Assembly: GCF_002441695.1 (NCBI RefSeq)
Contig: NZ_JXJW01000004.1
Location: 1 to 60,837 of the forward strand
From: Pseudolactococcus piscium
Lineage (GTDB): Bacteria; Bacillota; Bacilli; Lactobacillales; Streptococcaceae
Length of the DNA: 60,837 nt
Direction of reading: 5' to 3'
Shown here: in pieces, positions 44,465-60,723 of the stretch
Layout of the letters: each line of letters starts with the position of its first letter
How positions within the stretch are numbered: position 1 is the stretch's first letter
Translations under genes and position numbers: made by a program
Notes under the pieces: generated by a model
Database searches by the model: none
What the model saw: the letters and a program-made list of their open reading frames with translations, nothing else
Told to the model about the DNA's origin: nothing

Positions 44465-46465
44465 TTAAGACGCTTTTCTTAGGTTTCTGTAGCTAATTAG
44501 CCCGATAATGATAAGACCAGTTAGTAAAAAACCGATGATGCTCTGTTTAAAGTTACTGGATTCACCAGTTTTAGGCAGGACAGATTTTAATGACTTATTT
44601 TTTGATGACTGTGGTTTAGGTAATGCGGTTCCTGCTTTTTTTTCATTAGGGGAACTATTTTTTTCTTTATTTTCCTCTACCGCACTACTTGGGATAGCTT
44701 TTCGATAAACCACTTGTGACGTCATATCATTTGTATCACCCGTAATATCATTTACCGCGTCTATTTTCAGATAGTCTGCTGTCGTACCAGATATAGTTGG
44801 TGAGGCGATTGAATCAAATGTCGTACTGCCATCTTGAGATACCCAGGCACCATACTTAGTATCTCCCGTCACCTCATTTATGATTTCCAATCTAGTAAAA
44901 TAGATGACTGTCGTTACATCATCAGCTGCTTTTGTGCCATCTTCATAGGTATAACGGATGGTTCGACTGACTTTTTTTGTATTCATTTTTTTTGAAATCT
45001 GATGCTTTAAATGGACCTCAAAGGTTTGAACAACCCCTGGTTTATCATAGGCTAATCCACTTGACGGAAAAGCGTCCGAAACAAGGACATAGCCCTGGTT
45101 GATATAGTCAGCTATCATCGACGCTGTAGCATAGCCATCTCTTGTCTCATATAGGCCAGATAGTTGATCCATCGACAGGATACGATTTGTCGTATCATCT
45201 ATGTAAGATACCGTAGCTGATTCTTGATCCGCCTGCCACTGTGCATAGAGAATAGCCGTACCGTTCTGCTCAGTTGATAAATTTTGAATCTCCTCATCTG
45301 CTATATGGCCCTGACCTTGACCGTCCTTTTGCGTATTCCAGCCCTTGAACTGGTAACCTACCTTCTCAAACTTATTTTTTGAAACAGTTGCCTTTTTATC
45401 ATAGGTCATGGCTTGATTGTCCATCGTTCCAAGACCACTATTTCCATCAAACTTGATCTGATAGCGATTTGCGATCGCCTCTTTAGGATACAAGGTCAGA
45501 CCGCCTATTAACATCTTAAGACTATTATTTACATCATACGTATTAACACCGTCCGTTAATTTGGTTAGTCGATAACCTGGTTTTACGTCACTTGCTTTTT
45601 TTAATTCATCTGAGCTGATCGTATCCCCATTCTTTTTTTCTACATAGCTTCCCTCGGGATTAATTTGTTTTCTTTTTATCTCCCACTCTGACTTATCTGG
45701 ACAGACATATACCCTAGACGTTTCTTGATTTAATCCCCATGGTAATACAAACTCGTCTACCTTTGGATGGCCCATCGCAGAAACCTGGCTACCTCCATGA
45801 TAAGGTCCAATCACTTGGGCAGCATTATTTAGTAGAGGACCTCCTGACAAACCACCTGAATGTCTGGAGGTCCCATAAACTGTGTAGACGCCTTTAATTC
45901 TAGTCACATTATAGTTGGAAAAATGTTGCGTACGGCCATTAAAGCTTGGATAACCGACTAAGGCGAGGTTATCACCAGTAAAAAAAGAATGATTGGCAGC
46001 ATCAGTAAGCAGGGTTAAGGGTTTCACCACGTCACCAATATGTGTATAGGAGCCATCGTTGTTCTTCCTAGGATTGACTTTGATGACTGCATAATCATCT
46101 CGACCATAGCCGCCTTGATAGTATGGGCTCGTCTTTGACTTTTCTCTATCTCCAGTCCATTTTCCAAAAGGATGCGAGTTATTACTTCTGAGACCTGGTA
46201 TGATATCAACCGTCTCCCAACCATTATTCACATGCCCAGCGGTAAGGACGTAATCCCTACCGATAACCACTCCAGATCCTCTACTGCCATTACCCGCAGG
46301 AAACTTTTTTGATAGATAGACAACAGATGAATAGGGAAAGCCTGTGACTTCCTGATCAGACACACTATAATCTGCGGATGGGACGACAAAATCTTTGGCA
46401 TCAATTTTCCCGATAAAGCAAAAATTGCTTAGTAAGATGATGCCCAGAATCACATATTTTTTCAT
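44465..46465 (-). CDS. Cell-wall-anchored V8-like serine protease with InlB-type and MucBP repeats
   Basis: About 666 residues, exported and sortase-anchored. The ATG at 46465 follows AAAGGAA and opens a signal peptide (KKYVILGIILLSNFCFIG); upstream codons lack a site. The trypsin-like domain has His78 (VLTAGHV), Asp123/124 (RDDYAV) and Ser207 (GGLSGGP). Further on come an InlB/Listeria-type repeat ending KGWNTQKDG and AILYAQW, a MucBP-like domain and a Mub-B2-like domain. The protein ends with LPKTGESS, a hydrophobic helix and a basic tail. This suggests a protease held at the cell surface near mucin or glycoprotein; targets are unknown. Confidence 0.9.
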   Translation of the reverse strand: MKKYVILGIILLSNFCFIGKIDAKDFVVPSADYSVSDQEVTGFPYSSVVYLSKKFPAGNGSRGSGVVIGRDYVLTAGHVNNGWETVDIIPGLRSNNSHPFGKWTGDREKSKTSPYYQGGYGRDDYAVIKVNPRKNNDGSYTHIGDVVKPLTLLTDAANHSFFTGDNLALVGYPSFNGRTQHFSNYNVTRIKGVYTVYGTSRHSGGLSGGPLLNNAAQVIGPYHGGSQVSAMGHPKVDEFVLPWGLNQETSRVYVCPDKSEWEIKRKQINPEGSYVEKKNGDTISSDELKKASDVKPGYRLTKLTDGVNTYDVNNSLKMLIGGLTLYPKEAIANRYQIKFDGNSGLGTMDNQAMTYDKKATVSKNKFEKVGYQFKGWNTQKDGQGQGHIADEEIQNLSTEQNGTAILYAQWQADQESATVSYIDDTTNRILSMDQLSGLYETRDGYATASMIADYINQGYVLVSDAFPSSGLAYDKPGVVQTFEVHLKHQISKKMNTKKVSRTIRYTYEDGTKAADDVTTVIYFTRLEIINEVTGDTKYGAWVSQDGSTTFDSIASPTISGTTADYLKIDAVNDITGDTNDMTSQVVYRKAIPSSAVEENKEKNSSPNEKKAGTALPKPQSSKNKSLKSVLPKTGESSNFKQSIIGFLLTGLIIIGLISYRNLRKAS

Positions 46466-46690
46466 AACTTTTCCTTTTAAATCCAGATAGTATGTAGGCC
46501 CGCCTAAGAGCCTACTCACTCATTATTTAAGTCCTCTATATTGATATTTTATCATATCTTACATTATAATAACAGTTAAATTAACATGAGATACTTGTTT
46601 TAAATTTATCATAAATAATTTATTTTTTATTTATTTATATATCTTCAAATACTTACGACTAGTAACATACCCGTTAAGGAATACGACAAA

Positions 46691-46860: not shown

Positions 46861-48468
46861 TTATATAAGAAAAGCGATAGCTTGATAGGGGTGTAGGCTA
46901 TTTGCAGTGTAGGCTGAATAATTATTAATCAAAATCTCACTATTTTTAAATTCAGTTACTATGTCAAAGTTAACAACCTGATTTGAAAAATTGTTAAGCA
47001 CAAGTAGCTTACGATCTCCGAATTCACGGATAAAGCCATAAATCGTATCTGAGTCTTGATAGGCTGCTTGGTAACTCCCCTCAGCAATCAAGTCATCTGA
47101 TTTACGGAGTGCAATCAATTGCTTATAAAAGCGATATATTTCACCATCTTTATCATTTTCAACATTAATCTCCTGATGATTGCCTGTTGCAAGCCAAGGC
47201 TGTCCTGTTGAAAAGCCTGCATTTGCTGTATTGTCCCACTGCATCGGTGTTCTAGCATTATCACGGGACTTGATTTGAATGATTTCGAAGGCCTGCGCAT
47301 GACTGTGACCACTCTCTAGCAGGTTTTGATAGGCATTTTTAGATTCAACGTCTACATAATCAGACATATCCTTAAAATCTGGGTCGATCATGCCAATCTC
47401 CTCCCCCATATAAATATAAGGTGTCCCACGACTGAGATGGATACTTGCTGCCAGCATGGTTGCGCCCTTAATCCGGAAGTTTTTGTAGTCGATAAATCGA
47501 TTAATTGCACGCGGTTGATCATGGTTGTTCCAAAAAAGCGCATTCCAGCCATGACCATCGCTCATCTGTTCTCCCCAGCTATGAAAAAGGGTTCTTAATG
47601 CTTGAAAATCAAAGGGTGATTTGGTCCATTTTTGACCATCAGCATAATCTACTTTCAGATGATGGAAATTAAAGGCCATCGATAGTTCATGCCGGTTAGG
47701 TTGGCTATAGAGGATACAGTTATCAATGGTTGTCGAACTCATCTCCCCAACCGTGATACTCGCCTCGTCTTGACCAAATGTTGCACGATTCAGCATGTGT
47801 AGATAGTCATGTGTCAGCGGTTTATCCGTGTATTCCGCTTTGCCCTCATTCACTGGATTTGACTTAAGCAGCGTATCTTTACCGATCAGATTAATCACAT
47901 CGAAGCGGAAACCATACACACCTTTCTCCCGCCAAAAATTGACCACCTCAAACAAGGCCTTTCGGACATGCTCATTACGCCAGTTGAGGTCAGCCTGTGT
48001 GACATCAAATAAGTGGAGGTAATATTTGCCCGTATCACCAAACGGTGCCCAAGCGTTACCACCGAATTTTGATACCCAGTCAGTCGGTGTGTCTTGAATG
48101 AAGAAGAAATCTTGATAGTAGGTATCCCCTGCCAAGGCCTTTTGAAACCACTCATGTTCGATAGATACATGGTTAAGTACCATATCCAGCATGACATCAA
48201 TGCCGCGTTGCTTAGCTGCGGCGATCAGCCTATCAAAGTCAGTCATTGTCCCAAATACTGGGTCAATAGCTGTATAGTCTGAAATGTCATAGCCATTATC
48301 ACGCTGAGGACTTGGGTAGATCGGATTTAGCCAGATCATATCGATGCCAAGATCAGCTAGATAATCAAGCTTTGAGATAATCCCTTGTATATCTCCTATC
48401 CCATTTCCTGTTGTACCTAAATAAGATTTAGGATAAATCTGATAGATTACTTTATTTTTAAACGTCAT
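46861..48468 (-). CDS. treC: Alpha,alpha-phosphotrehalase (trehalose-6-phosphate hydrolase)
   Basis: GH13 enzyme splitting trehalose 6-phosphate to glucose and glucose 6-phosphate. 535 residues from the ATG at 48468 (MTFKNKVIYQIYPKSY); AAGGGG is nine bases upstream. Conserved regions: DMVLNH, GFRFDVIN (nucleophile Asp), VGEMSST (acid/base Glu) and NNHDQPR (third acid). The YPKSYLGTTGNGIGDI start is characteristic of TreA/TreC. It lies 75 bases after the trehalose PTS gene, with a hairpin in between. Confidence 0.93.
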   Translation of the reverse strand: MTFKNKVIYQIYPKSYLGTTGNGIGDIQGIISKLDYLADLGIDMIWLNPIYPSPQRDNGYDISDYTAIDPVFGTMTDFDRLIAAAKQRGIDVMLDMVLNHVSIEHEWFQKALAGDTYYQDFFFIQDTPTDWVSKFGGNAWAPFGDTGKYYLHLFDVTQADLNWRNEHVRKALFEVVNFWREKGVYGFRFDVINLIGKDTLLKSNPVNEGKAEYTDKPLTHDYLHMLNRATFGQDEASITVGEMSSTTIDNCILYSQPNRHELSMAFNFHHLKVDYADGQKWTKSPFDFQALRTLFHSWGEQMSDGHGWNALFWNNHDQPRAINRFIDYKNFRIKGATMLAASIHLSRGTPYIYMGEEIGMIDPDFKDMSDYVDVESKNAYQNLLESGHSHAQAFEIIQIKSRDNARTPMQWDNTANAGFSTGQPWLATGNHQEINVENDKDGEIYRFYKQLIALRKSDDLIAEGSYQAAYQDSDTIYGFIREFGDRKLLVLNNFSNQVVNFDIVTEFKNSEILINNYSAYTANSLHPYQAIAFLI

Positions 48469-48493
48469 GCTATTCATCCCCTTAATTAACAAA

Positions 48494-48543: not shown

Positions 48544-50577
48544 TTATCGTTTAGTGGCAGTCATGATCCCTTCACCTGCCAACGTCGCATGTGGCACCTG
48601 CCCTAGTAAATCTGCTTGAAAACTATCTTGATTTGTCACAATAACTGGTGTTTCGATGACAAATCCTTGATTTTTGATGAAGTCGATATCAAATGTCAGT
48701 AATTTCTGACCTTTTATGACATGATCACCTTGCGCAACAAAGGTTTCAAAGCCTTTACCTGCTAAGGAAACAGTGTCCATACCGATATGAATCAGCACTT
48801 CTACACCGGCATCAGAAATGAGGCCAATCGCATGTTTAGTTGGAAAGACAGCTGATACGACCCCAGCAAAGGGGGCTGATAACAGGCCTTCAGAAGGTAG
48901 GATAACCACACCCTCACCCATCATACCCTCACTAAAGACAGGATCGCTAGCAGTTGAGAGTGCCCGTACCTCTCCTTTTAAGGGGCTAGCAATCTCAACT
49001 GTCGTCCCGATAGCTGTTCCCGCTTTTGCGGCACTTTCTAAAGCATCAAGCGTTGCATCCTGTTCAGATAAGTTTACTGCGCCAGCACCTACTCTGTCAA
49101 GTTTATTAAAAATACCCGCTTGACGGAAGAAGAAGGTCAATACGATTGGTACAACTAGTGCGATTAACATTGGCAATAAGAATTTCAACATGTCTTCACC
49201 ACGAATGGCTAGAATACCAGGCAGTCCACCAACACCAATCGAGTTAGCCCGAACACCCATGAACGTAGAGACCATGCCTGCGATACCTGATCCTATCATG
49301 GCAGCGACAAAGGGATAGAGGTATTTTAAGTTAATCCCGAACATGGCTGGTTCAGTTACCCCTAACCATGCTGAAATCGTAGATGGCACTGAAATTTCTG
49401 CTTCTTTTTTGTTCTTTTTATGGAGAAGATAAACAGCAAATACTGATGCACCTTGGGCGATATTAGACAGATCGATCAATGGCCACAAATTGGTTGAGCC
49501 ATAATCGGCAATCAACTGGGCATCAATGGCTAATGTTGTATGATGCAAGCCTGTAATCACGAGTGGAGCATAAAGAATACCAAAGACACCACCGAATAAC
49601 CAAGCAAGAGAGGACGTTAGCCCTGTATTCACCACAAAGGAAATCCCTTGTCCAATTTTCCAACCGATCGGGCCAATGATTGCGTGAGCCGCAATGATTG
49701 TTGGCAATAGTGAGAATAAAGGTACAAAAATCATAGAAATAGCTTCTGGAATGTGTTTTCTAAAGAAACGTTCTAAATAGGCTAATAAGAACCCTGCTGC
49801 CATAGCAGGAATAACTTGCGCTTGGTAGCCGATTTTTTCTAGGGTAAAGAAGCCAAAGTCCCAAGTCCAATTTTTGGCAATTTCAGCAGCTGTCGTCCCA
49901 TTTACAGCATAAGCATTTAAAAGCTGTGGTGAAACTAGGGTAATCCCAAGGACAATCCCCAAGATTTGCGTGGTGCCCATCTTACGGGTAACTGACCAGG
50001 TAATCCCAACTGGTAAGAAGTGGAAAATCGCTTCACCAGGCAACCATAGAAAACTATTGACACCATTCCAAAATGGTGAGACCTGCACGATTGTATTCCA
50101 AACTGGTTTACCTTCTGAAGTGACTTTTAATACGCCATCGACAGCAGCTTGACCTAAGGCTTGTATCTGCACACCTTCCAAAATATTACGGAAGCCTAGG
50201 ATAAGCCCCCCTACAATAATTGCTGGTAATAAGGGTGTAAAAATCTCAGACAAGGTACCAACTAATTTTTGAATAACATTTTGATTGGTCTTAGCAGCTG
50301 ACTTGGCAGCTTCTTTTGAGACACCTTCTATCCCACTGATTGCTGAAAAGTCATTATAAAAGTCAGCAACGTCATTGCCGATGATGACTTGAAATTGTCC
50401 GGCATTTGTAAACATGCCTTTGGTCGTTGAAATAGCTTCGATTCTTTTTTTGTCTGCTTTGTCATCATCGTTGAGCACAAAGCGCATGCGCGTTGCGCAG
50501 TGGGTTACTGCGGCAACATTTTCTTTCCCACCAATCGCGTCGAGCAGCTCCTTGGCTTGTTTTTCAAATTTTCCCAT
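48544..50577 (-). CDS. treP: Trehalose PTS transporter subunit IIBC(A)
   Basis: Takes up trehalose and phosphorylates it. 677 residues: IIB with phospho-Cys27 in THCATRMRF; IIC with ITGLHHT and VTEPAMFGINL; a linker near 510; and a full IIA domain with phospho-His in VLIHIGMDTV. Many trehalose transporters lack IIA, so this one is self-contained. Placement before treC and the operator upstream support trehalose over other glucosides. Confidence 0.93.
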   Translation of the reverse strand: MGKFEKQAKELLDAIGGKENVAAVTHCATRMRFVLNDDDKADKKRIEAISTTKGMFTNAGQFQVIIGNDVADFYNDFSAISGIEGVSKEAAKSAAKTNQNVIQKLVGTLSEIFTPLLPAIIVGGLILGFRNILEGVQIQALGQAAVDGVLKVTSEGKPVWNTIVQVSPFWNGVNSFLWLPGEAIFHFLPVGITWSVTRKMGTTQILGIVLGITLVSPQLLNAYAVNGTTAAEIAKNWTWDFGFFTLEKIGYQAQVIPAMAAGFLLAYLERFFRKHIPEAISMIFVPLFSLLPTIIAAHAIIGPIGWKIGQGISFVVNTGLTSSLAWLFGGVFGILYAPLVITGLHHTTLAIDAQLIADYGSTNLWPLIDLSNIAQGASVFAVYLLHKKNKKEAEISVPSTISAWLGVTEPAMFGINLKYLYPFVAAMIGSGIAGMVSTFMGVRANSIGVGGLPGILAIRGEDMLKFLLPMLIALVVPIVLTFFFRQAGIFNKLDRVGAGAVNLSEQDATLDALESAAKAGTAIGTTVEIASPLKGEVRALSTASDPVFSEGMMGEGVVILPSEGLLSAPFAGVVSAVFPTKHAIGLISDAGVEVLIHIGMDTVSLAGKGFETFVAQGDHVIKGQKLLTFDIDFIKNQGFVIETPVIVTNQDSFQADLLGQVPHATLAGEGIMTATKR

Positions 50578-50635: not shown

Positions 50636-50653
50636 AACTTGTACGTACAAGTT
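50636..50653 (-). promoter_or_regulatory. TreR-type operator
   Basis: A perfect 18-bp palindrome, AACTTGTAC/GTACAAGTT. It resembles the TTGTANNTACAA sites of GntR-family TreR. It begins about six bases after the predicted transcription start of treP. No treR gene is in the window. Confidence 0.75.
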
Positions 50654-50875: not shown

Positions 50876-51910
50876 TTATTTAACATCTTCAACCAGTGCA
50901 AAGACATCATCGATAAGCTGCAAGACTTTGCGAACTTGCTCATTTTTAACGATTGGGTGTGCACCATGTCTCATAACATCAAAGACATTCTGATAGAATG
51001 GGACAAAATCAGCAGGTATTGGCTTGATAGCATGTTTGAGCGTTGCTTCCTCGGATGGTGGTGCCATCGTCTTAGTCAGGCCAACACCGGCTTTGATTGG
51101 CTTAGGCGCAAGGACATCTGCTTTATTTGTTGCCACGACAAGTTCACCTGATAGATCCCAGTTTTCTATTTTCGCAGCACCATTTAGGCCTTTAACATAC
51201 CAGCGCGGTAATTGACTATAGTTTGTCGTGCCCACTTCAATTAGGGCACGTATACCATTCTCAAATGTCAAATAAAGGATGAAGCCATCATCAACCTCAT
51301 TGCCTAAAATATAGGAGAAGTCAGCTGACATCTGTTTGATGGGACTATCGATCAGCCACAATAGCTGATCGATTAGGTGGACACCCCAATCCAGCAACAT
51401 GCCACCGCCATGCTTTGCCTGCTCTCGCCAGTCACCTGGTATACCATTTGCACCATGGACACGAGATTCAATCTGGAACAAATCACCTATTTGACCCGTT
51501 TGATACAGGTCTCGAATCACGAGAAAATCCGGATCCCAACGGCGATTTTGATGCACCATGAAGGTATTGCCAGTTTCCTTTGCAACCGCTAAGATATCAT
51601 CGAGTTCTGCAACATTCATGGCAACAGGTTTCTCACAAATGACGTGCTTACCAGCATGAAGCGCGGCAATTGCTATCGTTTTATGGGCATCATTTGGCGT
51701 TGCGATTAATACCGCTTCCACTGTCTCATCAGCTAGGACACGTTCCAGACTATCATATACTTTAAGTCCCGCCTCACGCGCATTATCCTGGGCTGTTTGT
51801 GCAATATCATAAACCCCAACGACCTGCACAAGTTCACTCGGCATCAATTCCTTTTTATGATAACTCCCCATCCCACCGTAACCGATGATCACAAACTTAA
51901 TCGCTGTCAT
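50876..51910 (-). CDS. Gfo/Idh/MocA-family oxidoreductase (second of the cluster)
   Basis: NAD(P)-dependent sugar oxidoreductase family. 344 residues: Rossmann GYGGMGSYH near residue 9, CEKPVAMN near 95 with the catalytic Lys, and the C-terminal sheet domain with GGMLLDWGVHLIDQLLW, whose Asp/His pair is typical of the active site. Last gene of the cluster, 110 bases after the TIM-barrel gene. Likely oxidises or reduces a hydroxyl of a sugar or glycoside; substrate unknown. No predicted export. Confidence 0.9.
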   Translation of the reverse strand: MTAIKFVIIGYGGMGSYHKKELMPSELVQVVGVYDIAQTAQDNAREAGLKVYDSLERVLADETVEAVLIATPNDAHKTIAIAALHAGKHVICEKPVAMNVAELDDILAVAKETGNTFMVHQNRRWDPDFLVIRDLYQTGQIGDLFQIESRVHGANGIPGDWREQAKHGGGMLLDWGVHLIDQLLWLIDSPIKQMSADFSYILGNEVDDGFILYLTFENGIRALIEVGTTNYSQLPRWYVKGLNGAAKIENWDLSGELVVATNKADVLAPKPIKAGVGLTKTMAPPSEEATLKHAIKPIPADFVPFYQNVFDVMRHGAHPIVKNEQVRKVLQLIDDVFALVEDVK

Positions 51911-52019
51911 TTTCTTACCTCTTTTATCCTATCTCTCTTTTAACTGTTATCAGTCCTAACGCGATGCTAAACTTATCTCACTTGCTCTGACTCGGGTCAC
52001 CTAGGACTAATAAATTAGC

Positions 52020-52988
52020 TTATAACCACCATGGATTTGCTGGTTGATCCTGAATCATCACTGAACGTAAGTTTATGATCGCACGATTTAAGCCTTCATC
52101 AATCGACATGATCGGATCTTCATGTTCAATACTCAGCACATAATCGTAGCCATATATCCGCAATGCCGATACAATATCAGACCAGACTTTTAAGTCATGC
52201 CCACAGCCAACTGACCGGAAAGTCCAGGCGCGTGTTGCAACATTATCATACGGCTGCATATCAGTTAAACCATGCATATTGATATTGTCTTGATCCAAAT
52301 AAGTATCCTTGGCATGGAAATGATGAATTGCGTTTTTTGATCCTAATATTTTTATGGCAGCGACTGGATCAATTCCTTGCCACCACAGATGGCTCGGATC
52401 GAGATTACACCCTATAGCGTCACCCGCTGCATCACGCAGTCTTAGCATCGTGTAAGGTGTATGTGCCAAGAAGCCACCATGTAACTCAATACCGATCTTA
52501 ATTCCAGCAGCTGTTGCTTCCGTGTTGATCCCCTTCCAGTAAGGAATCAATTTGTTGTCCCATTGATAATTGTATGAATCATCATATTCTGTCGGCCAAG
52601 GTAGGACTGGCCAGTTGACATGGGTATCTGTTGCATTCCCACCTGCTACACCGGAAAAGCCATTCACAACGGGGACATGCATCAAACTTGCCAGTTTGAT
52701 TGTTTTGCGTAGTAATTCATCCGCTTCTTTGGCAACATCAGCGAGTGGTGAAATCGGATTATTGTGGCAAGATAGGGCTGAAATTTCTAAATTTTTATCT
52801 GATAGTCTAGCCAAATAGTCTTTACGGGCATCACTAGATGCTAGTAATTTATCAATATCTAAGTGGGCATTACCCGGACTACCACCAGTGCCAATTTCGA
52901 CAGTTTGCAAGCCTTTAGATGCGACTTCAGCTATCATCTCATCAAACGATAAGTTATTAAATAATGGGGTAAAAACGCCTAATTTCAT
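52020..52988 (-). CDS. Xylose-isomerase-like TIM barrel protein (sugar epimerase/lyase family)
   Basis: 322 residues of the AP-endonuclease-2/xylose isomerase-like superfamily. Metal ligands are visible: Glu in KIGIELHGG, Asp/His in [10 protein letters not shown], His in HHFHAKD and Glu in LSIEHEDP. Members include keto-sugar epimerases, inosose dehydratases and 3-keto-glycoside-cleaving enzymes. Its start overlaps the ThuA stop as ATGA, so it is translated together with it. Given two oxidoreductases nearby, a role on a keto-glycoside is my inference. Confidence 0.87.
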
Positions 52989-53698
52989 GCCTTAATCTCC
53001 TTTTTTTCAAAATGACCATAACTTGGATAACGATTGCCTGTTGGGGCACAAAACGAAACAGCATTCTTGATGATACGCTGTACATTTCCATCATAGTAGC
53101 TTGGGTAGGTTTCATGACCTGGTTGGAAGTAGAAAATTTTGCCATTACCGCGTTTGTAGACACAGCCACTTCGGAAAATTTCACCGCCAGGATACCAGCT
53201 AACGAGGACCAACTCGTCAGGTGCTGGAATATCAAAGTGTTCACCATACATCTCTTCCATCTCCAAATCGATGAAGTCACCAATGCCCTGTGTAATCGGG
53301 TGTCCAGGATTAACATTCCAGATACGACAAGGCTGTTCGTCTTCTCGCCATTTCAAATCACATGATGTCCCCATCAATTTCTTGAATAGCTTGGAGAAAT
53401 GACCTGAATGTAAGACAATCAACCCCATCCCTTCAAGGACACGTTGATGGACACGATCGACTATGCTATCTGCTACCTCGTCGTGGGCAATATGTCCCCA
53501 CCATAGCAAGACATCAGTATTGGCTAAGATAGCCTCAGTTAAGCCGTGTTCGGGCTGATCCAAGGTTGCTGTTATGACCTCAAATTCATCTTGTAAAAAT
53601 GAGGCTAGCTGCCCGTGTATGCCTTTCGGGTACATGCTACTCACTTTGGGATCCATCAATTCATGTCGATATTCATTCCATATGGTGACTTTAATCAT
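52985..53698 (-). CDS. ThuA-family protein
   Basis: 237 residues of the ThuA (trehalose utilization) family, a class I glutamine-amidotransferase-like flavodoxin fold. Visible are TDVLLWWGH near 55, [14 protein letters not shown] near 92, [10 protein letters not shown] near 140 and [12 protein letters not shown] near 205. In rhizobia ThuA works with ThuB (Gfo/Idh) in trehalose and related disaccharide use through 3-keto forms. Here it sits between two oxidoreductases and a TIM barrel. The chemistry of ThuA is not firmly settled. Confidence 0.88.
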
Positions 53699-53735
53699 TT
53701 GCTAACACTTTCTATGCTTTCTGCTGTCTAAACGA

Positions 53736-54806
53736 CTATAAGAAGACGGGTTGACCAGTTTTAGCTGACTCATAGATACCTTCTAATATTTGTGTGACAA
53801 CCAATGCTTGCTCGGGTTTAACGAGTGGGGCTGTATCATTAACCACAGCATCATACCAACTCTCAGCTTCATTAAAGGCAGGATCATCACCAGCACCATC
53901 ATAGAAATCAACACCACCAGTTTCAAGCTCAATTTTTTTCTCGTAGAGCAAGCCATGTTCTTCACCATTAATGGTCAAGCCGTTATTCATGTCAGCACCA
54001 GCTTTTGTCCCCATCAAGGTTGTTTTGGCTTCTTTGACATCTAATGAGTTGATGGCCCAACTTGATTCAAGGTAGATGGTTGCCCCATTTTCCATGACAA
54101 CAAAGCCAATCGCTGAGTCTTCTACTGTAAATTTTTCTGGATCCCATGGGCCCCATGCATTAGCCGCATTTTTAGTGCCAGATAATTTATGATAGGCATT
54201 ACCAACCACATATTTAGGGATGTAGTTGTCCATCATCCAAAGCGTTAAATCAAGGGCATGTGTTCCGATATCGATCAATGGTCCGCCACCTTGGGCTGCT
54301 TCATCAAGGAAGACGCCCCAAGTTGGGACTGCGCGACGTCTGATGGCATGTGCTTTGGCTGTATAAACTTCACCAAGCTCGCCCGCCTCACAAATCGTAT
54401 GTAGATATTGCGAATCTGTTCTGAACCGATTTTGATAGCCAATCGTTAGTTTTTTTCCTGTTCTTTTGGCTGCTTCTATCATCGCCTTAGCTTCTTCGGA
54501 TGTTTTAGCCATTGGTTTTTCACACATCACATGGCAGCCAGCTTCCAAAGCGGCAATTGTTAACGGTGCATGTGACACATTAGGTGTTAGGACATGAACC
54601 GCATCTAACTCAAGTTTTAAGAGGTCTTGATAATCTGTAAAGACCAATGCGTCCTCAGTGCCAAATGCTTTTTTTGCTGCCTCAGCACGAGAAACTTCTA
54701 GGTCACAAAAAGCGACTAATTCAACGATAGCTAATTTTGAAAGTGCTGGTAAATGTTTCCCATTTGCGATACCACCGCACCCAATAATGCCAATTTTCAA
54801 GCTCAT
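53736..54806 (-). CDS. Gfo/Idh/MocA-family oxidoreductase (first of the cluster, ThuB-like)
   Basis: 356 residues from the ATG at 54806, which is five bases after GGAGG; an upstream ATG at 54839 has no site. Rossmann GCGGIANGKH near residue 9, CEKPMAKT near 90, DIGTHALDLTLWMMD near 175, and the C-terminal domain with NGATIYLESSWAIN. It resembles ThuB and other glycoside 3-dehydrogenases in layout; that function is inferred. Located 37 bases before thuA. Confidence 0.9.
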   Translation of the reverse strand: MSLKIGIIGCGGIANGKHLPALSKLAIVELVAFCDLEVSRAEAAKKAFGTEDALVFTDYQDLLKLELDAVHVLTPNVSHAPLTIAALEAGCHVMCEKPMAKTSEEAKAMIEAAKRTGKKLTIGYQNRFRTDSQYLHTICEAGELGEVYTAKAHAIRRRAVPTWGVFLDEAAQGGGPLIDIGTHALDLTLWMMDNYIPKYVVGNAYHKLSGTKNAANAWGPWDPEKFTVEDSAIGFVVMENGATIYLESSWAINSLDVKEAKTTLMGTKAGADMNNGLTINGEEHGLLYEKKIELETGGVDFYDGAGDDPAFNEAESWYDAVVNDTAPLVKPEQALVVTQILEGIYESAKTGQPVFL

Positions 54807-54911
54807 TTTATCCTCCATATCGCTGTATAAGCGTTTCATTTGATACCTTTATTTTAGTAAATTTTGCCACGCAATACTTCCCAATTCTCTAACAGAAAAT
54901 TCCCAGATATT

Positions 54912-54940
54912 GCGCATCTTTTCTGAGTACTGAGATGCGC
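54912..54940 (-). other. Hairpin right after the AraC regulator gene
   Basis: GCGCATCT/AGATGCGC stem with a 13-base loop, starting at the stop codon. No T-run follows, so it might be an RNA processing or partial termination point between regulator and enzymes. Confidence 0.5.
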
Positions 54941-55818
54941 TATTTGATCCACCGTTTTGCCTGTAGTTGCTTTTGATATTGTAAGGGTGAGATGCCTTGT
55001 GATTTTTTAAAGACATGATGGAAGGTTTTCACACTTGAAAACCCTGCTTTATCAGCGACGTCTACCATGGGCAACCTTTCCTGACTCAAAATATATCTGG
55101 CTTGATCTAACCGATAATCACTTAGAAATTGAATAAAGGTTTGACCGATGTGTTTCTTGAAGAAACGCGTGAAATAGTAGGGACTAAAGCCGACCAGGTC
55201 ACTAATTGTTTCAAGCGTGATATCTTCTTGAAAGTGGGTTTCAATGTAGCCAAATATTTTGTTAAGTAGCACTAAATCTTCCTTGTATTTAACTTCGGAA
55301 TGGTTGAGCATTGGCTTACTTGCGTTGCCTTGCGGTAACTCCTCCAAAAACATACCTATGAGTTGCATCAGATAGCCCAGCTGCAAACAAGGTACAGCAA
55401 GTGAGCTGGATTGCGTTGTCTCAAATAGCTTATCTAGCAAGTCTGCTGCTGTCTGGGCTAGTGCATTTGGCCAGGACTTGCTACACGTTTGAGCTGTTTC
55501 AAATAAGGCGATTAATTGTGATTGGCTAATGCCTAATAGCTTCTCATCAAATATAGCCAAATCGAACTGGTAAACATAACGCGCACTATCAGGTGATGAC
55601 AGAAATGAATGCGTTGCACCACTTGGAAAAATGATGAGTTCTTTTTCTGCTAACCCGATAATCTCATTTTGATAGGCAATATTGACACAGCCTTTTTTCA
55701 CATAGATGATTTCCACTTCCTTATGAAAATGTGGAAAGCTAGCTAAGGTATTTTCATTCTCGAACATTTTCAAATTAATCGGACTGTCATATTCAACCAA
55801 CTCGATGTATTTACTCAT
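54940..55818 (-). CDS. AraC-family transcriptional regulator
   Basis: 292 residues: an N-terminal cupin sugar-sensing domain (PHFHKEVEIIYVKKG) and a C-terminal double HTH (DITLETISDLVGFSPYYFTRFFKKH; PMVDVADKAGFSSVKTFHHVFKK, each in parts). The ATG at 55818 has AGGAG five bases before; the frame offers a GTG at 55824. It lies inside the cluster between the permeases and the oxidoreductases, so it probably activates this cluster upon binding the substrate or an intermediate. Confidence 0.92.
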   Translation of the reverse strand: MSKYIELVEYDSPINLKMFENENTLASFPHFHKEVEIIYVKKGCVNIAYQNEIIGLAEKELIIFPSGATHSFLSSPDSARYVYQFDLAIFDEKLLGISQSQLIALFETAQTCSKSWPNALAQTAADLLDKLFETTQSSSLAVPCLQLGYLMQLIGMFLEELPQGNASKPMLNHSEVKYKEDLVLLNKIFGYIETHFQEDITLETISDLVGFSPYYFTRFFKKHIGQTFIQFLSDYRLDQARYILSQERLPMVDVADKAGFSSVKTFHHVFKKSQGISPLQYQKQLQAKRWIK

Positions 55819-55899
55819 TGCCACTCCTATTTTTATTACTTACCTTGAGCCTATGCTATTTTCTATCACTCTATGATCATCAAACATGATCTAGCCCAC

Positions 55900-56748
55900 C
55901 TATTTAACAGCGCCATCTGCCATCCCTTTAATAATTTGTTTTTGCAAGAAGATGAACAAGATAATAACTGGAATCACCGTGATCAAGACTGCTGGAAACA
56001 TGAGATCCCATGGCACTGAATAGGGGCCATCTTTCATTTTTGCGTAATACAAGGCTAAGGTTAAGGTTTTGTGCTCAGAGTCCCCTAGTACTAGGAAAGG
56101 TAAGAGGTAGTCATTCCAAACCCACATGGCATTCAGGATGATAACTGTTACCGTAGTCGGTCTCACGAGTGGCATGACGATTTTAAAGTAGACTTGGAAG
56201 ACATTTGCACCATCTATGATAGCAGCTTCTTCCAAGGATACTGGAACACTCTTCATAAAACCATGATAAAGGAAGGTTGACATGGCTAGACCAAAGCCAC
56301 CATACATGATGATGAGGCCTGGAACATTTTTCAAGCCCACACTTTCAAACATCGAAATCAAGGGATACATCACTGCTTGAAACGGAATAAGCATGGATGC
56401 TGTGAAAACCAAGAGGATAATCATAGCCAGTTTGCTCTTCACACGCACCATCATCCATGCAGCGCTTGATGATAATAAGACGATGAAGGTAACTGCTAGG
56501 ACTGTGATTAAGACAGTTAAAATAAATGACGGTAGCAAATTGATTTGCGTCATGGCATGTGAGATGTATTTAAAGGTAATCTCTTTTGGTAATGCCAAAG
56601 GGGAGTCCACAATTTCAGCTTGTGACTTAAAAGAATTCATGAACATAAAAGCAATCGGAAAGATTGTGACTAAGCCCATCACTAACAGGATGAGAAACAT
56701 GAAAACCTTGCCTAATTTTTGACCTGCTGTTTCTACTGAATGGTTCAT
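55900..56748 (-). CDS. ABC sugar permease, MalG-type
   Basis: 282 residues, six membrane helices. The EAA loop EEAAIIDGANVFQVYFKIVMPL, which docks the ATPase, is at about 190. N terminus before helix 1 is short. Its start overlaps the end of the other permease as ATGA. Together they form the import channel of the carbohydrate ABC system; no ATPase gene is adjacent. Confidence 0.94.
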   Translation of the reverse strand: MNHSVETAGQKLGKVFMFLILLVMGLVTIFPIAFMFMNSFKSQAEIVDSPLALPKEITFKYISHAMTQINLLPSFILTVLITVLAVTFIVLLSSSAAWMMVRVKSKLAMIILLVFTASMLIPFQAVMYPLISMFESVGLKNVPGLIIMYGGFGLAMSTFLYHGFMKSVPVSLEEAAIIDGANVFQVYFKIVMPLVRPTTVTVIILNAMWVWNDYLLPFLVLGDSEHKTLTLALYYAKMKDGPYSVPWDLMFPAVLITVIPVIILFIFLQKQIIKGMADGAVK

Positions 56749-57659
56749 TGCATCTCCACCTCTTTACCTTTCAAAATAACAGTTTGCGTGATTGAAATTG
56801 CGGCCACAACTAAGAAGAAAATAACTGCTTCTGCTTGGGCAATACCATAGTTACCATTTGTATCACTTGTTACTTTTAGTACTTGTGCTGCTAACATCCT
56901 ATAGCCCTGTGGTGCATTATTTGTCAAGGCAATATTTTGGTCGAGTAGCATGAAACATCTAGACAGGACAAGGAAGAAAACGATTGTAAAACTTGGGACC
57001 AACATCGGCACCGTGATTTTGAAAAATTTTTGGAAGGCATTGGCACCATCTATAGATGCCGCCTCATAATAATCATCTGAGATATTGGCTAATCCAGTCG
57101 TATAGATAACCATCATGTAGCCAGACATTTGCCAGACTGCCATGATCAAAATCGCAAACATCAGTTTATTCGGGTCTTTATCTGTCATGTAAGTCAAGAA
57201 TTTAATCGGTAACACGCCATCTTTGCCAAATAATACTTTGGTAAAGATATTGTTAAAGATGAAAAGCCAGATAAAGCCGAGTGATAACCCGCCAAGCAAG
57301 TTAGGTAGGAAAAACGTGGCGCGAAAGATACCGACAGCTTTTCCGATAGCATTGACTAACAGCGCTTGTGCTAAGGCAACAATATTGACGGCAATAACAG
57401 CTAGAACAGTGAATTTCACTGAGAAAAAGAAGGCTGATCGGAATGACTCTTGTTTAAATGCAGCCAGGTAGTTTTTCAAGCCAACAAAGGCCTCGAAAGG
57501 ATTTGTTGTCCGCCCATTGGCTCCCATGAAAAACGAGCCACGCCAACCAGTAAACGAATAGAAGATACCGATGATAAATGGCACCAAAACGACGATTAGG
57601 AAAACGGCAACAGCTGGCAAAACAAATGGAAAGAACCATTTTCTATATAATTTTGACAT
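56745..57659 (-). CDS. ABC sugar permease, MalF-type
   Basis: 304 residues with six to seven helices. EAA loop YEAASIDGANAFQKFFKITVPM is near 205; the N terminus starts KLYRKWFFPFVLPAVAVFLI. It follows the binding-protein gene by about 190 bases, which contain a hairpin at 57790-57817. Confidence 0.94.
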   Translation of the reverse strand: MSKLYRKWFFPFVLPAVAVFLIVVLVPFIIGIFYSFTGWRGSFFMGANGRTTNPFEAFVGLKNYLAAFKQESFRSAFFFSVKFTVLAVIAVNIVALAQALLVNAIGKAVGIFRATFFLPNLLGGLSLGFIWLFIFNNIFTKVLFGKDGVLPIKFLTYMTDKDPNKLMFAILIMAVWQMSGYMMVIYTTGLANISDDYYEAASIDGANAFQKFFKITVPMLVPSFTIVFFLVLSRCFMLLDQNIALTNNAPQGYRMLAAQVLKVTSDTNGNYGIAQAEAVIFFLVVAAISITQTVILKGKEVEMQ

Positions 57660-57789
57660 TAACTCACCTCATTTAGTTGGACCACAAGTCATGATAAGCA
57701 TGTCACATATCGTACTTGTGATACCTATAGTATCTGAAATAGATAAAATTTCTACTTAAGTAATTAAGCCCTTGTTTTTAAAAATTAAA

Positions 57790-57817
57790 TACCCATACTG
57801 CATCAACAATATGGGTA
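57790..57817 (-). terminator. Partial terminator between binding protein and permeases
   Basis: TACCCATA/TATGGGTA stem with a 12-base loop. The minus-strand tail is TTTAATTTTTAAA. This is a common way to make more binding protein than permease. Confidence 0.65.
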
Positions 57818-57847
57818 CTCAATCTCTTTTTAAGACGTGGTACTTAA

Positions 57848-59344
57848 TTATTTACCACTTTGCTCCTTAAAGTCTACCCAAGTTTTAACTGATTTATCAA
57901 CGTAGTTGTCGTAGTCTTTTTCAGTCCAGTTCGCTTTGGTCATGTAATCTTTTTTCAAGACATCACCGATCGTATCATTAAATGAGCCAGGTGTCCCATC
58001 AAATGGATTACCAAGTGTTGGTCCCGCTGCAACGTAAGACGCAATTGCGTTGTTGAGTTTATTTGGAGAAGTCGTATCTTTCAAGTCATTGTACATGATG
58101 AATCCGGCTTCTTCTTTGAGGAATTTTTTACCTCTATCAGACGTATAAAGCCAAACTAGGAAGTCAGCTGCAATTTTTTGTTGTTTCTTGCTGACTTGTT
58201 TGTTAACGATAAAGTAGTTTGGTACGAATGCTGGAATCGTTGTATTAAACTGTTTGGCATCACGTCCTTTAACTTTGATATCGCTGTCTTGTACTGGCCA
58301 TTTGATTGGGACTAAATCCATTGTGTCAATAATTTGTTTATTGATTTTTAACAAGTTTGGATAAATCCAGTTACCTTGTTTCAGGAATACCCCTTTGTGG
58401 GCAACAAAGTTGGCAAGTGAGGCATCATAGCTGCCTGTTGCACTATCAATGAAGTCAGGACCACGTTTGACTGGGCCGTTTTTACCAGCCATATAAGAAT
58501 ATTCAAAGTCAAGCCCTTTGATTTCAGATTTCAATGCTGATTTGGCATCTTTAATCCCTTCATCTCCTTTAGCATAGTAAGCTTCAGAAACATTTTTAAA
58601 GACAGCATTCAAAGGAAGTGACACCCAGTGGTTTTGATAGGTCCAAATTTCAGCTCCAGATTCAACAAACACACCATTTAACTCTTTAGCTAATCCTTTT
58701 TTCTCTGAGGCAAGTGTATAAGGATGACCATTAACAGTTACCGTTGACACAGTGCCATCTTTGATGTAAGCATCAACTGCTTTGACAAATCCTTGCCATG
58801 CCTCGTAATTAGGTTCTGCTTTAAGGTCTGCTACCAAAGCATCTGTATCCCCCTCAAATAGATCTTTCAAGACAGTTTTATCTACTTGGTAGCCATAGCC
58901 TTCAATGTTATAAGGCAAGCCAAAGTTTTCCCCTTTTTTAGCTGTCAATCGCTGCGCGTCTGGAATTTCATCTGCTAGTTTCTTAAGTTTAGCATTATCA
59001 AGTTTGTTGATATCTTGCATGTAATCGCCAGAGTCAGGGCCCCAGTTTGTTAAGGTACCAGATGAGAAGATGGTTGGTGGTGTTTTCGAGCTAAATTCAG
59101 TTGTCTGTACTTCGTTACCATTTGTTGTGCCAACTGATAAAGTATACGTTTTAACCTTAATATTATTTTCTTTGCCGTATTCTTCAACTACTTTTTTCAA
59201 AGGATCTGCAATTTCTCCCTTGCCATTAAAGACATACAAGAAATCATCTCCACCACTTTTAGAACTTGCATTACCGCAAGCCGCTAGTGACGTTATCGCC
59301 GCAACTGTCAGCAAGCCCAACCCTAATTTTTGCCATCTCTTCAT
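57848..59344 (-). CDS. Carbohydrate ABC transporter substrate-binding lipoprotein
   Basis: 498 residues. Lipoprotein signal MKRWQKLGLGLLTVAAITS then LAAC, with Cys23 to be lipidated, so it is tethered outside the membrane. The rest is a family 1 extracellular sugar-binding protein (FLYVFNGKGEIADPLKKVV..., then AWQGFVKAVDAY and the C-terminal FLVWLYTSDRGKKF). Family 1 proteins usually bind oligosaccharides or glycosides. AGGAG precedes the ATG. First gene of the operon after the promoter at 59555. Confidence 0.93.
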   Translation of the reverse strand: MKRWQKLGLGLLTVAAITSLAACGNASSKSGGDDFLYVFNGKGEIADPLKKVVEEYGKENNIKVKTYTLSVGTTNGNEVQTTEFSSKTPPTIFSSGTLTNWGPDSGDYMQDINKLDNAKLKKLADEIPDAQRLTAKKGENFGLPYNIEGYGYQVDKTVLKDLFEGDTDALVADLKAEPNYEAWQGFVKAVDAYIKDGTVSTVTVNGHPYTLASEKKGLAKELNGVFVESGAEIWTYQNHWVSLPLNAVFKNVSEAYYAKGDEGIKDAKSALKSEIKGLDFEYSYMAGKNGPVKRGPDFIDSATGSYDASLANFVAHKGVFLKQGNWIYPNLLKINKQIIDTMDLVPIKWPVQDSDIKVKGRDAKQFNTTIPAFVPNYFIVNKQVSKKQQKIAADFLVWLYTSDRGKKFLKEEAGFIMYNDLKDTTSPNKLNNAIASYVAAGPTLGNPFDGTPGSFNDTIGDVLKKDYMTKANWTEKDYDNYVDKSVKTWVDFKEQSGK

Positions 59345-59522
59345 CGTATTCTCCTTCGATAAATGGGACTAGTCAATATGACAAGTCTGTTAAAAATTTT
59401 ATGTCAACCGTTTTCATACTATGCAAAATTTTTTAACAATAGCAACTGATCATGATAGGAAACATGACTAGCCTATTGTCAAATAATTCTCCACAACCAC
59501 CTACAATGCTGACCCTCCCTCC

Positions 59523-59538
59523 GAAAGCAAGCGCTTTC
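59523..59538 (-). promoter_or_regulatory. LacI/CcpA-type operator downstream of the ABC operon promoter
   Basis: GAAAGCAAGCGCTTTC, with an inner AAGCGCTT palindrome and outer GAAAGC/GCTTTC repeats. It begins about ten bases after the expected start. It is a likely site for the cluster's LacI regulator, or a degenerate cre. Confidence 0.65.
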
Positions 59539-59554
59539 ATTTCTTTATACTTGC

Positions 59555-59583
59555 ATTTTACTATACTTATTTGACTATGTCAA
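59555..59583 (-). promoter_or_regulatory. Promoter of the ABC/ThuA operon
   Basis: Minus strand TTGACA (59583..59578), 17-base spacer, TAAAAT (59560..59555). It gives a leader of about 205 bases before the binding-protein ATG. A further TGAAAACGGTTGAC, similar to the operator motif, is at 59402-59415. Confidence 0.82.
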
Positions 59584-59705
59584 CCCTTTTCATAACTTGT
59601 ATAAAATGGTAGCAAACTACTGCTGTGTCTGCAATATTTGCTAATAACCTATTATTTTTCTATTATAAAATATTTTTTTCACACATGGTAAATAGGGTAT
59701 AAAAA

Positions 59706-59725
59706 AAATCCTTAAACTAGGATTT
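59706..59725 (-). terminator. Terminator of the lacI-type gene
   Basis: AAATCCT/AGGATTT, 6-base loop, followed on the minus strand by a run of eight T. It separates the regulator from the ABC operon. Confidence 0.85.
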
Positions 59726-59733
59726 AAAATCGA

Positions 59734-60723
59734 TTAAGCGGTACCCCTAATGATCAGCTTTGTTTTTAATTCTGGTTTTTCTGGCAAGGCCTTGTGTTCG
59801 ATATGTGCAATCATGACTGTCGCTACATACTCTCCCAGCTCCTGAATTGGTTGGCGGATCGTCGTCAAACCCGGATATAATACATCAGCAATGGGTTGAT
59901 CATCAAAGCCGATAATGGCAAGTGTTTCCGGTACTTTAATATTTAAAAGATGACATTGGCTTAAAATCCCAGATGCGACCTCGTCACTGATGACTAAAAC
60001 CGCATCTGGTTTATTTTCACCCATTGCTAAAATATCCGTTAAGGTACTTCGACCATCACCTATTGATGCGCGACGTAACAAGACATAATCCCAGTTAAGG
60101 TCAATGTTAAATGCCGTTAGCGCTTCATGATAGCCTGCAAATCTAGGATCAACATGTATCCTACTTGGTTTATTAGCAGATACATAGGCTATTTTCCGAT
60201 AGCCTTTAGACAGTAAATAGTAGGTCGCTTCATACGTTGCCTTTTTTTCATCAATCCGGATAAGCGGAATATCCTTATCACCGAGATAACGATTACAAAC
60301 AACGATTTTACCACTCTCAATCAACTTTAATACCTCAGGACTATCATTGTCAAGACTGGTCATGATCAAGCCATCCAGTTGTCGTTTTTTTAGCATTTCA
60401 ATAAATTTTTGTTCCCGATCAGCTTCTTCTAAAGTCTGCAAAACAACAATTTGATAGCCAGCTTGATAGGCTACTTTCTCAATTGCATCTACCAAATAGG
60501 TAAAAAAAGGGTTGGTCACAAAAGAGATGATGACCCCGATCAGTTTTGTCCCTTTTCCCCTTAACTGCTGCGCGACATTATTAGGATAGTAGTCTAGCTC
60601 TCTCATCACGTCAAAAATTTTCTTTTTTGCTTTATCCGATACATAAGGATGATCATTAATTGCTCTAGAAATGGTTGTGATGGAATACCCTGTTTTTTCT
60701 GCTACATCACTTATTTTCGCCAT
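59734..60723 (-). CDS. LacI-family transcriptional regulator
   Basis: 329 residues. HTH at the N terminus (KISDVAEKTGYSITTISRAIN), hinge helix PNNVAQQLRGKG, then a periplasmic-binding-like effector domain (LIGVIISFVTNPFF; LDGLIMTSLD; DAVLVISDEVASGIL; IIGFDDQPIADVLYPGLTTIRQP). GGAGAAGAGG precedes the ATG. It is encoded just upstream of the ABC/ThuA operon and likely represses it until the sugar or an intermediate binds. Confidence 0.95.
   Translation of the reverse strand: MAKISDVAEKTGYSITTISRAINDHPYVSDKAKKKIFDVMRELDYYPNNVAQQLRGKGTKLIGVIISFVTNPFFTYLVDAIEKVAYQAGYQIVVLQTLEEADREQKFIEMLKKRQLDGLIMTSLDNDSPEVLKLIESGKIVVCNRYLGDKDIPLIRIDEKKATYEATYYLLSKGYRKIAYVSANKPSRIHVDPRFAGYHEALTAFNIDLNWDYVLLRRASIGDGRSTLTDILAMGENKPDAVLVISDEVASGILSQCHLLNIKVPETLAIIGFDDQPIADVLYPGLTTIRQPIQELGEYVATVMIAHIEHKALPEKPELKTKLIIRGTA

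Follow-up and report, generated by a model that had tools for sequence, protein, structure and literature searches.

Agrobacterium, Bacillus smithii, and some gut bacteria are already known to cleave glucosides without a glycoside hydrolase. The GlycDH-AtOGE-AtHYD-Gfo operon of Agrobacterium tumefaciens combines C3 oxidation, elimination, hydration, and reduction (PMC10628242); the LgdA-B1-B2-C system of B. smithii for levoglucosan includes two Gfo proteins and an LgdB2-type barrel (PMC7676230, PMC10066097); and the dgp system of Dorea strain PUE for C-glycosides uses a DgpA-type oxidase (PMC8563793, PMC11239390). Here we describe a related gene module of Pseudolactococcus piscium (assembly GCF_002441695.1; genome of 2.4 Mb, 99.97% complete), located in the first 60,837 bases of contig NZ_JXJW01000004.1. 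This whole stretch is called the window.

With the A. tumefaciens operon the module would share all four steps; its triosephosphate isomerase (TIM) barrel protein, TIM1, folds like AtHYD, and a second barrel carried by relatives, TIM2, resembles AtOGE. However, the first oxidase of A. tumefaciens belongs to the GMC family, whereas the window has a Gfo-type oxidase, no eliminase gene, and an additional ThuA protein. The LgdB2-type barrel, two Gfo proteins, ATP-binding cassette (ABC) uptake, and a LacI regulator are common to the module and the B. smithii system, but the Gfo proteins of the window are far from LgdA and from the genes at the LgdC place, an LgdB1-type barrel is missing, and ThuA and AraC proteins are present. 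The DgpA-type oxidase is shared with the Dorea system; the DgpB-type subunit family is absent from the genome studied, and TIM1 did not match the DgpC type.

We propose that the module serves the inducible uptake and catabolism of a glucoside imported in unphosphorylated form, most likely an O-glucoside whose aglycone is a good leaving group; it would be cleaved without a glycoside hydrolase. Judged from the sequences, the probability of this reading is roughly 0.6. This type of pathway is already known; its eliminase-free, ThuA-bearing form would be new, and no description of a ThuA-containing cassette was found in the partial listings of the literature searched. If the route works as proposed, bacteria with the cassette free aglycones by means that are missed in glycosidase annotation.

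The nine genes are open reading frames on the minus strand. Pfam models for LacI, the permease at 55900-56748, AraC, two GFO_IDH_MocA proteins, ThuA, and AP_endonuc_2 matched over their cut-offs, and the Pfam and NCBIfam scans together with the frame coordinates confirmed the co-directional cluster and the families originally predicted:

59734-60723, minus strand: LacI-family regulator (Pfam; top NCBIfam name RbsR, 212 of 382 bits)
57848-59344, minus strand: substrate-binding lipoprotein, 498 residues (PDB 9xor at 1.9e-17)
56745-57659, minus strand: ABC sugar permease 1, GlcT/MalF type (NCBIfam permease models, below cut-offs)
55900-56748, minus strand: ABC sugar permease 2 (Pfam, over cut-off)
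54940-55824, minus strand: AraC-family regulator (Pfam, over cut-off)
53736-54806, minus strand: Gfo2, proposed DgpA-like glucoside 3-oxidase (DgpA1 and DgpA matches in PDB; motifs)
52985-53698, minus strand: ThuA protein (PF06283; PDB 1t0b)
52020-52988, minus strand: TIM1, proposed LgdB2/AtHYD-type 2-hydroxy-3-keto-glucal hydratase, possibly also eliminase (homology and fold)
50876-51910, minus strand: Gfo1, proposed NADH-linked 3-keto-glucose reductase (PDB 3e18 and 9m37)

Oxidoreductases, the TIM1 barrel, and the proposed route

By homology, Gfo2 is a close relative of the glucoside 3-oxidases DgpA1 (9m3d, 7.2e-132) and DgpA (7xr9, 6.7e-126); the alignments were nearly full-length, and the CEKPM and GGGPLIDIGTHALD motifs are common to these proteins. 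DgpA-type enzymes oxidize glucosides at C3 with 3-keto-glucose or methyl 3-oxo-glucoside as the acceptor (PMC11239390). The oxidation step most likely belongs to Gfo2. Reduction of 3-keto-glucose is proposed, less surely, as the role of Gfo1. Gfo1 is a full Gfo protein, and its matches were 3e18 (1.3e-130; named only as an oxidoreductase) and, at 3.4e-57, the isoorientin complex of DgpA2 (9m37). These assignments reverse the numbering of the original prediction.

Sequence searches with TIM1 reached only two PDB entries, 2zds (SCO6571) and the 2-hydroxy-3-keto-glucal hydratase AtHYD (8ro4), the latter at 1.3e-5 with the single sequence and 6.4e-9 with a profile. A fold search with the AlphaFold2 model of TIM1 (mean predicted local distance difference test score, pLDDT, 91.9) placed the uncharacterized 2zds first (5.8e-20) and AtHYD second, as the best characterized match (2.7e-19; template modelling score 0.80). 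D-psicose/D-tagatose 3-epimerases (from 3.5e-13) and IolE (1.4e-11) followed at lower ranks, and AtOGE was not among the 50 fold matches listed.

The DgpA-like Gfo2 and the DgpA2-like Gfo1 would also suit C-glycoside degradation as in dgp/dfg clusters, and degradation of puerarin by a Lactococcus strain has been reported (PMC10772555). However, 20 of the 24 genomes searched, including the one studied, lack PF19906, the family of the beta subunit, which is clearly present in the other four. Neither the two PDB entries matched by the TIM1 profile nor the 50 fold matches listed include a C-glycoside eliminase. We consider this substrate class very improbable.

The profile of TIM1, built from 44 barrels of the cassettes described below, was then tested on levoglucosan clusters. 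LgdA was detected over its cut-off in 9 of 398 genomes of the class, at ten places, and one place per genome was read (n = 9; one stretch ends at a contig end). Six of these loci contain a barrel of about 325 residues scoring 480-522 bits against the TIM1 profile. Over its length, TIM1 shares 47-50% identity with these six lgdA-locus barrels, and the motifs ExH, DPSH, HAKD, and EHED are conserved. Each of the six loci also holds a second barrel of about 270-310 residues, with only 42-51 bits against the TIM2 profile. We take the larger barrels for LgdB2 because of their size and place: LgdB2 has about 325 residues and occurs mainly in Firmicutes (PMC10066097). The B. smithii enzyme acts as a hydratase on 2-hydroxy-3-keto-glucal; Mn2+ enhances its activity, and it could stand in partly for the eliminase LgdB1 (PMC7676230). 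From homology and the modelled fold, we propose that TIM1 is an LgdB2/AtHYD-type hydratase, perhaps bifunctional and catalyzing elimination too. Of the lyase/hydratase role first suggested for the barrel, the hydratase part is thus upheld by this likeness, and the lyase part is possible.

The grouping of TIM1 with the 325-residue barrels of lgdA clusters, together with the LacI regulator and ABC uptake that also occur in the B. smithii cluster (PMC7676230), could mean that the module is itself an lgd operon for levoglucosan (1,6-anhydroglucose). Both Gfo proteins, however, scored far below the LgdA cut-off (84.4 and 82.2 of 650 bits), and neither LgdA (at 1e-150) nor a TIM2-type barrel was detected in the genome. 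A transporter ATPase frame of about 500 residues, recognized by eye in seven of the nine lgdA loci, is also missing from the module, and a levoglucosan operon is highly unlikely here. Four Geobacillus loci (L065, L066, L071, and L072) contain ThuA and an LgdB2-type barrel (530-539 bits) with other Gfo genes; they are possibly intermediate between the cassette and lgd-type clusters.

Another reading is free-sugar interconversion, i.e., epimerization via keto intermediates, or inositol-type catabolism, which the original prediction had named as the outcome that would speak against it. The fold of TIM1 does resemble, at lower rank, 3-epimerases and IolE, and IolG is the top NCBIfam name for Gfo1. 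The scores were nevertheless far below cut-off (IolG model: 142.6 bits for Gfo1 and 100.9 for Gfo2, of 355; IolE model: 19.4 of 290 for TIM1), AtHYD is clearly nearer to TIM1 than the epimerases and ranks above the IolE structures, and 21 of 37 related cassettes include an AtOGE-like barrel. No iol-named family occurred among the 25 commonest neighbour families shown (of 174 and of 179), a neighbourhood test that is not exhaustive because 153 of 175 chosen neighbours (plus 10 single proteins) were scanned and the commonest families shown. Such a function is quite unlikely.

Each step of the proposed route is drawn from homology. The glucoside would be imported by the binding protein and the two permeases, with the ATPase encoded elsewhere. 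Gfo2 would oxidize the glucosyl unit at C3 in an NAD-linked reaction, with 3-keto-glucose as a possible hydride acceptor, as reported for DgpA. The 3-keto-glucoside would lose its aglycone by beta-elimination, either spontaneously or by TIM1, to give 2-hydroxy-3-keto-glucal, which TIM1 would hydrate to 3-keto-glucose. Gfo1 would reduce the latter to glucose; alternatively, Gfo2 would re-use it as an acceptor. The net result would be a formal, redox-neutral hydrolysis, with ThuA as an accessory, and the minimal set looks like an oxidase, an LgdB2-type barrel, and a reductase.

Elimination would be spontaneous or due to TIM1 because this lineage is without the AtOGE-like barrel that many relatives carry. 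Because many O-glucosides need no dedicated eliminase, we propose either that the substrate is an O-glucoside whose leaving group is good or that TIM1 carries out the elimination. When D3dgpA oxidized daidzin, genistin, and others, aglycones were formed, whereas C-glucosides were not cleaved (PMC11239390); once oxidized, O-glucosides release the aglycone with no eliminase present (PMC11239390, PMC12724307). The kind of hydrolase-free route originally predicted, by oxidation, elimination, hydration, and reduction, thus agrees with the homology of Gfo2, TIM1, and the TIM2 of relatives, with the roles of the enzymes corrected.

The cassette, ThuA, and the eliminase-like barrel in other genomes

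Related loci were taken as the best 80 of at least 257 confirmed ThuA relatives, ranked by likeness to the window. The order gfo2-thuA-TIM1-gfo1 on one strand was found in 37 of the 80 (identity thresholds of 62, 57, 60, and 50%, set by us), which is not a frequency in nature because the loci were chosen by likeness to the window. Two of the 37 belong to Lactococcus plantarum and the rest to other genera, including Enterococcus, Vagococcus, Tetragenococcus, Paenibacillus, Listeria, Trichococcus, and Lacticaseibacillus. Not counted were L058, which holds gfo2, thuA, and the barrel next to a contig end; L042, which has gfo2 and thuA alone; and loci that combine ThuA and TIM1 with different Gfo genes. 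A score above 350 bits for TIM1 was obtained in 54 of the 80 loci. Since the gene order is kept in 37 loci, the cluster is more than a chance assembly. The nearest relatives among the matches listed were L. plantarum (ThuA 88-89% identical). Within the genus, gfo2 was present in 8 of 12 genomes, the studied one included, with 88-100% identity.

Of 395 genomes sampled from the order, 102 contain a TIM1-type barrel (E < 1e-100); they belong to 22 of 81 genera and to seven families, and the count refers to the barrel alone. Its scores (585-657 bits) fall in the range of cassette barrels and not of lgd ones. Because of this spread, the expectation that such a cluster would be unusual in a lactic acid bacterium was not borne out for the order. 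Within its own family, only the studied genome matched in this draw, with 20 others listed without a match, and the genus may stand apart there.

Annotation of the neighbours (153 of 175 chosen representatives scanned) revealed neither a further conserved gene nor any indication of the substrate. The Listeria monocytogenes proteins Lmo2160 and Lmo2161 presumably belong to the same cassette. Both are included in a sigma-factor proteome table, Lmo2160 as a sugar phosphate isomerase/epimerase (PMC3721983). Two Vagococcus species have a divergent cluster immediately upstream of the full cassette (L025:217-4999 and the corresponding place in L031). Its Gfo gene is 36-38% identical to Gfo2, and the L025 cluster also has two further xylose-isomerase-like TIM barrels. 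In two species, the cassette is followed downstream by genes of the beta-glucoside type of the phosphotransferase system (PTS), over the TIGR01995 cut-off (L020:13335-15293 and L025:14158-16017, the latter after an antiterminator gene); these are a possible hint to the substrate.

The second barrel, TIM2, was present in 21 of the 37 full cassettes, inside in 18 and upstream by 2-3 kb in three; three more matches were found in loci without a full cassette. One TIM2 sequence matched the O-glycoside beta-eliminase AtOGE (8BVK, 3.7e-18) and 8tcd (5.8e-20). An invariant set of His-Asn-His, Asp, His, and Glu in 20 TIM2 sequences resembles the AtOGE site as described in PMC10628242. In the genome studied, no TIM2, i.e., no dedicated beta-eliminase of the AtOGE/LgdB1 type, was detected by single-sequence or profile search, while four positive-control genomes matched at 1.3e-111 to 2.2e-121. 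Its AP_endonuc_2 proteins were considered as candidates for a second eliminase-like barrel; besides TIM1 there are four. By context (by eye), one lies in an ascorbate (ula) operon, another is a xylose isomerase, and a third is a UxuA-type dehydratase; the fourth lies on contig C19. Among the 12 genomes of the genus, a single distant TIM2 relative (3.0e-35) was found, in a genome without a gfo2 orthologue. The genus genome G010, which has no module, carries, close to MFS and PTS genes, another Gfo gene paired with an eliminase-like TIM barrel (L156:8727-10672).

The 16 cassettes without TIM2 come from 15 genomes, of which eight had no match anywhere, two had strong matches elsewhere (7.5e-102 and 8.2e-66), and five had weak ones (7.4e-15 to 9.5e-30). 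At least eight changes in TIM2 presence are required on the tree of 43 cassettes, or six at the genome level, where the two genomes with strong matches elsewhere were scored positive and the five with weak matches absent. In 1000 label shuffles the minimum was nine changes and the mean 14.7. TIM2 thus follows descent, with fewer changes than in any shuffle, yet changes repeatedly. Some branches are weak (support 0.199, 0.484, and 0.613), and the tree, across which absence of the eliminase recurs, does not settle loss versus gain. No position of TIM1, Gfo1, or Gfo2 cleanly separated cassettes with TIM2 from those without it.

ThuA belongs to its family with 117.5 bits against PF06283 (cut-off 33.4) and is 60% identical to the ThuA-like protein 1t0b of Bacillus stearothermophilus (1.2e-102), which is known by structure only; no function for it was found in partial literature listings. 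A fold search with the ThuA model (mean pLDDT 86.8) returned 1t0b first, followed by Bacteroidales ThuA-like proteins (from 6.1e-9). Eighteen relatives, including those of haloarchaea and Verrucomicrobia, have ThuA proteins 58-97% identical to that of the window, and a Gfo gene lay within the fetched stretch in 71 of the 80 loci. In the genus, thuA is in place in five of the eight genomes with gfo2 and the barrel directly follows gfo2 in three; thuA is missing at the locus in three, the search being confined to the locus in those genomes. The original prediction, in which ThuA is one of the enzymes of the route, is corrected on this point. One genus genome without thuA at the locus has its binding-protein gene split in two frames (L118:12507-14003). 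Passages of PMC9007349 and PMC11300592 contain nothing on ThuA and concern other 3-keto-glycoside systems (DUF1080 and BT2158).

A bolder proposal, which we regard as doubtful, has two parts held jointly. The DgpA-type oxidase, an eliminating and hydrating LgdB2-type barrel, and Gfo1 would together make up a complete non-hydrolytic glucosidase of minimal composition, one that arose repeatedly, apparently through loss of the eliminase; and this ThuA subfamily would be a genuine 3-keto-sugar enzyme, e.g., for an anomer or 2-keto isomer that the barrel cannot handle. The second part, if true, would account both for the wide retention of ThuA and for its absence from some species. The role of ThuA is directly testable with natural variants, namely forms with or without the eliminase and sister species with or without thuA. 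A second, distant ThuA-like gene (38.4 bits) lies elsewhere in the studied genome (G000:C1, about 133,795-134,472; L095:7796-8473), adjoining xylose-type genes for a kinase, epimerase, isomerase, and ABC uptake (by eye).

The treBC neighbours and points against the proposed route

The original prediction noted the absence of a glycoside hydrolase, which holds inside the span of the module; a phosphotrehalase gene lies second beyond it on the same strand:

50637-50652, no strand assigned: perfect palindrome ACTTGTACGTACAAGT before treB (one match, 0.01 expected)
48544-50577, minus strand: trehalose PTS EIIBCA, treB, outside the pathway (TIGR01992, 705.9 of 591.95 bits)
46861-48492, minus strand: phosphotrehalase TreC, outside the pathway (TIGR02403, 808.7 of 799.05 bits; scanned as 46861-48471)

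Rhizobial ThuA and ThuB act on disaccharides through 3-keto forms. The module might accordingly be a second route of this kind for trehalose or other alpha-disaccharides: it contains ThuA and adjoins treBC in all eight genus genomes that carry it, and four of eight scanned GH13 genes near other ThuA loci passed the phosphotrehalase subfamily model NF008183. We consider this unlikely. The palindrome, which we take to be a TreR-type operator, is identical in six of seven aligned loci, with one change in the seventh, and the catabolite-responsive element (cre)-like site AACGCTTGCA at treBC is present in all seven. With this palindrome and cre-like site of their own, treBC appear to be a separate unit, which suggests that they are not part of the pathway. 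On the other side of the module, a HAD gene and a GntR-type regulator (TreR by eye) occur in the six genomes whose contigs reach so far. Two of the four genus genomes without gfo2 hold regulator-HAD-treB-treC and no module, the other two being arranged differently. None of the eight GH13 neighbours passed the TreC equivalog cut-off (TIGR02403), and thuA is missing at the locus in three genus genomes.

Several observations weigh against an oxidative route for O-glucosides. Oxidized kaempferol glucosides kept their aglycone (PMC11239390). Three of the nine lgdA loci read, one of them cut by the contig end, lack the 325-residue barrel, and the identity of 47-50% refers to lgdA-locus genes and not to the assayed B. 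smithii LgdB2. Gfo1 shares only 25-29% identity, along part of its sequence, with the genes at the LgdC place, and it could be a second oxidase because its nearest named relative is DgpA2 with isoorientin. ThuA is conserved across phyla with Gfo genes nearby, yet the route assigns it no step. The constant position of treBC after gfo1 and the GH13 genes close to ThuA in several loci of other genera, half of those scanned passing the looser phosphotrehalase subfamily model, could point to alpha-glucosides. The neighbours point both ways, since the GH13 genes stand against the beta-glucoside-type PTS genes of two loci.

Transport and regulation

The PDB entry matched by the binding protein, 9xor, is a chain named maltose-binding protein; no Pfam match was obtained at 1e-3. 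Permease 1 was scanned in NCBIfam only. No ABC ATPase gene was found in the cluster, to which this search was confined. Conservation of the transporter is only partial, since 12 of the 80 ThuA loci have a permease pair like that of the module (identities of at least 36 and 40%). The LacI gene adjoins the module in the six genus genomes whose contigs extend that far, and the cluster of the AraC regulator was found in 28 of 39 cassette loci. Three sites precede the binding-protein gene:

59576-59594, minus strand: operator-like repeat, copy 1, TATGAAAAGGGTTGACATA, overlapping a -35-like TTGACA
59525-59540, minus strand: LacI/CcpA-type palindrome TGAAAGCGCTTGC with one mismatch, just after a -10-like element
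59400-59418, minus strand: operator-like repeat, copy 2, TATGAAAACGGTTGACATA, the second of two copies in the window

The 19-base-pair repeats occur nowhere else in the window (none expected in 100 shuffles), and we infer that the LacI protein uses them. Copy 1 is identical in all six aligned loci (the window and five congeners); copy 2 is identical in four, has one base changed in one, and is diverged in one. The palindrome is kept with some changes in the six loci, and a promoter-like site lies at 59583-59555; neither class of pattern is enriched in the window.

Beyond treC, the genus loci vary. In L118, L119, L120, L123, and L124, treC and argF are adjacent with no gene for a cell-wall protein between them. 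The window encodes at 44465-46519 (minus strand) a cell-wall anchored protein with an LPKTG end and a trypsin-like LTAGH motif (by eye), and a relative of this protein occupies the same place in L121 (413 residues) and L122 (running past the stretch).

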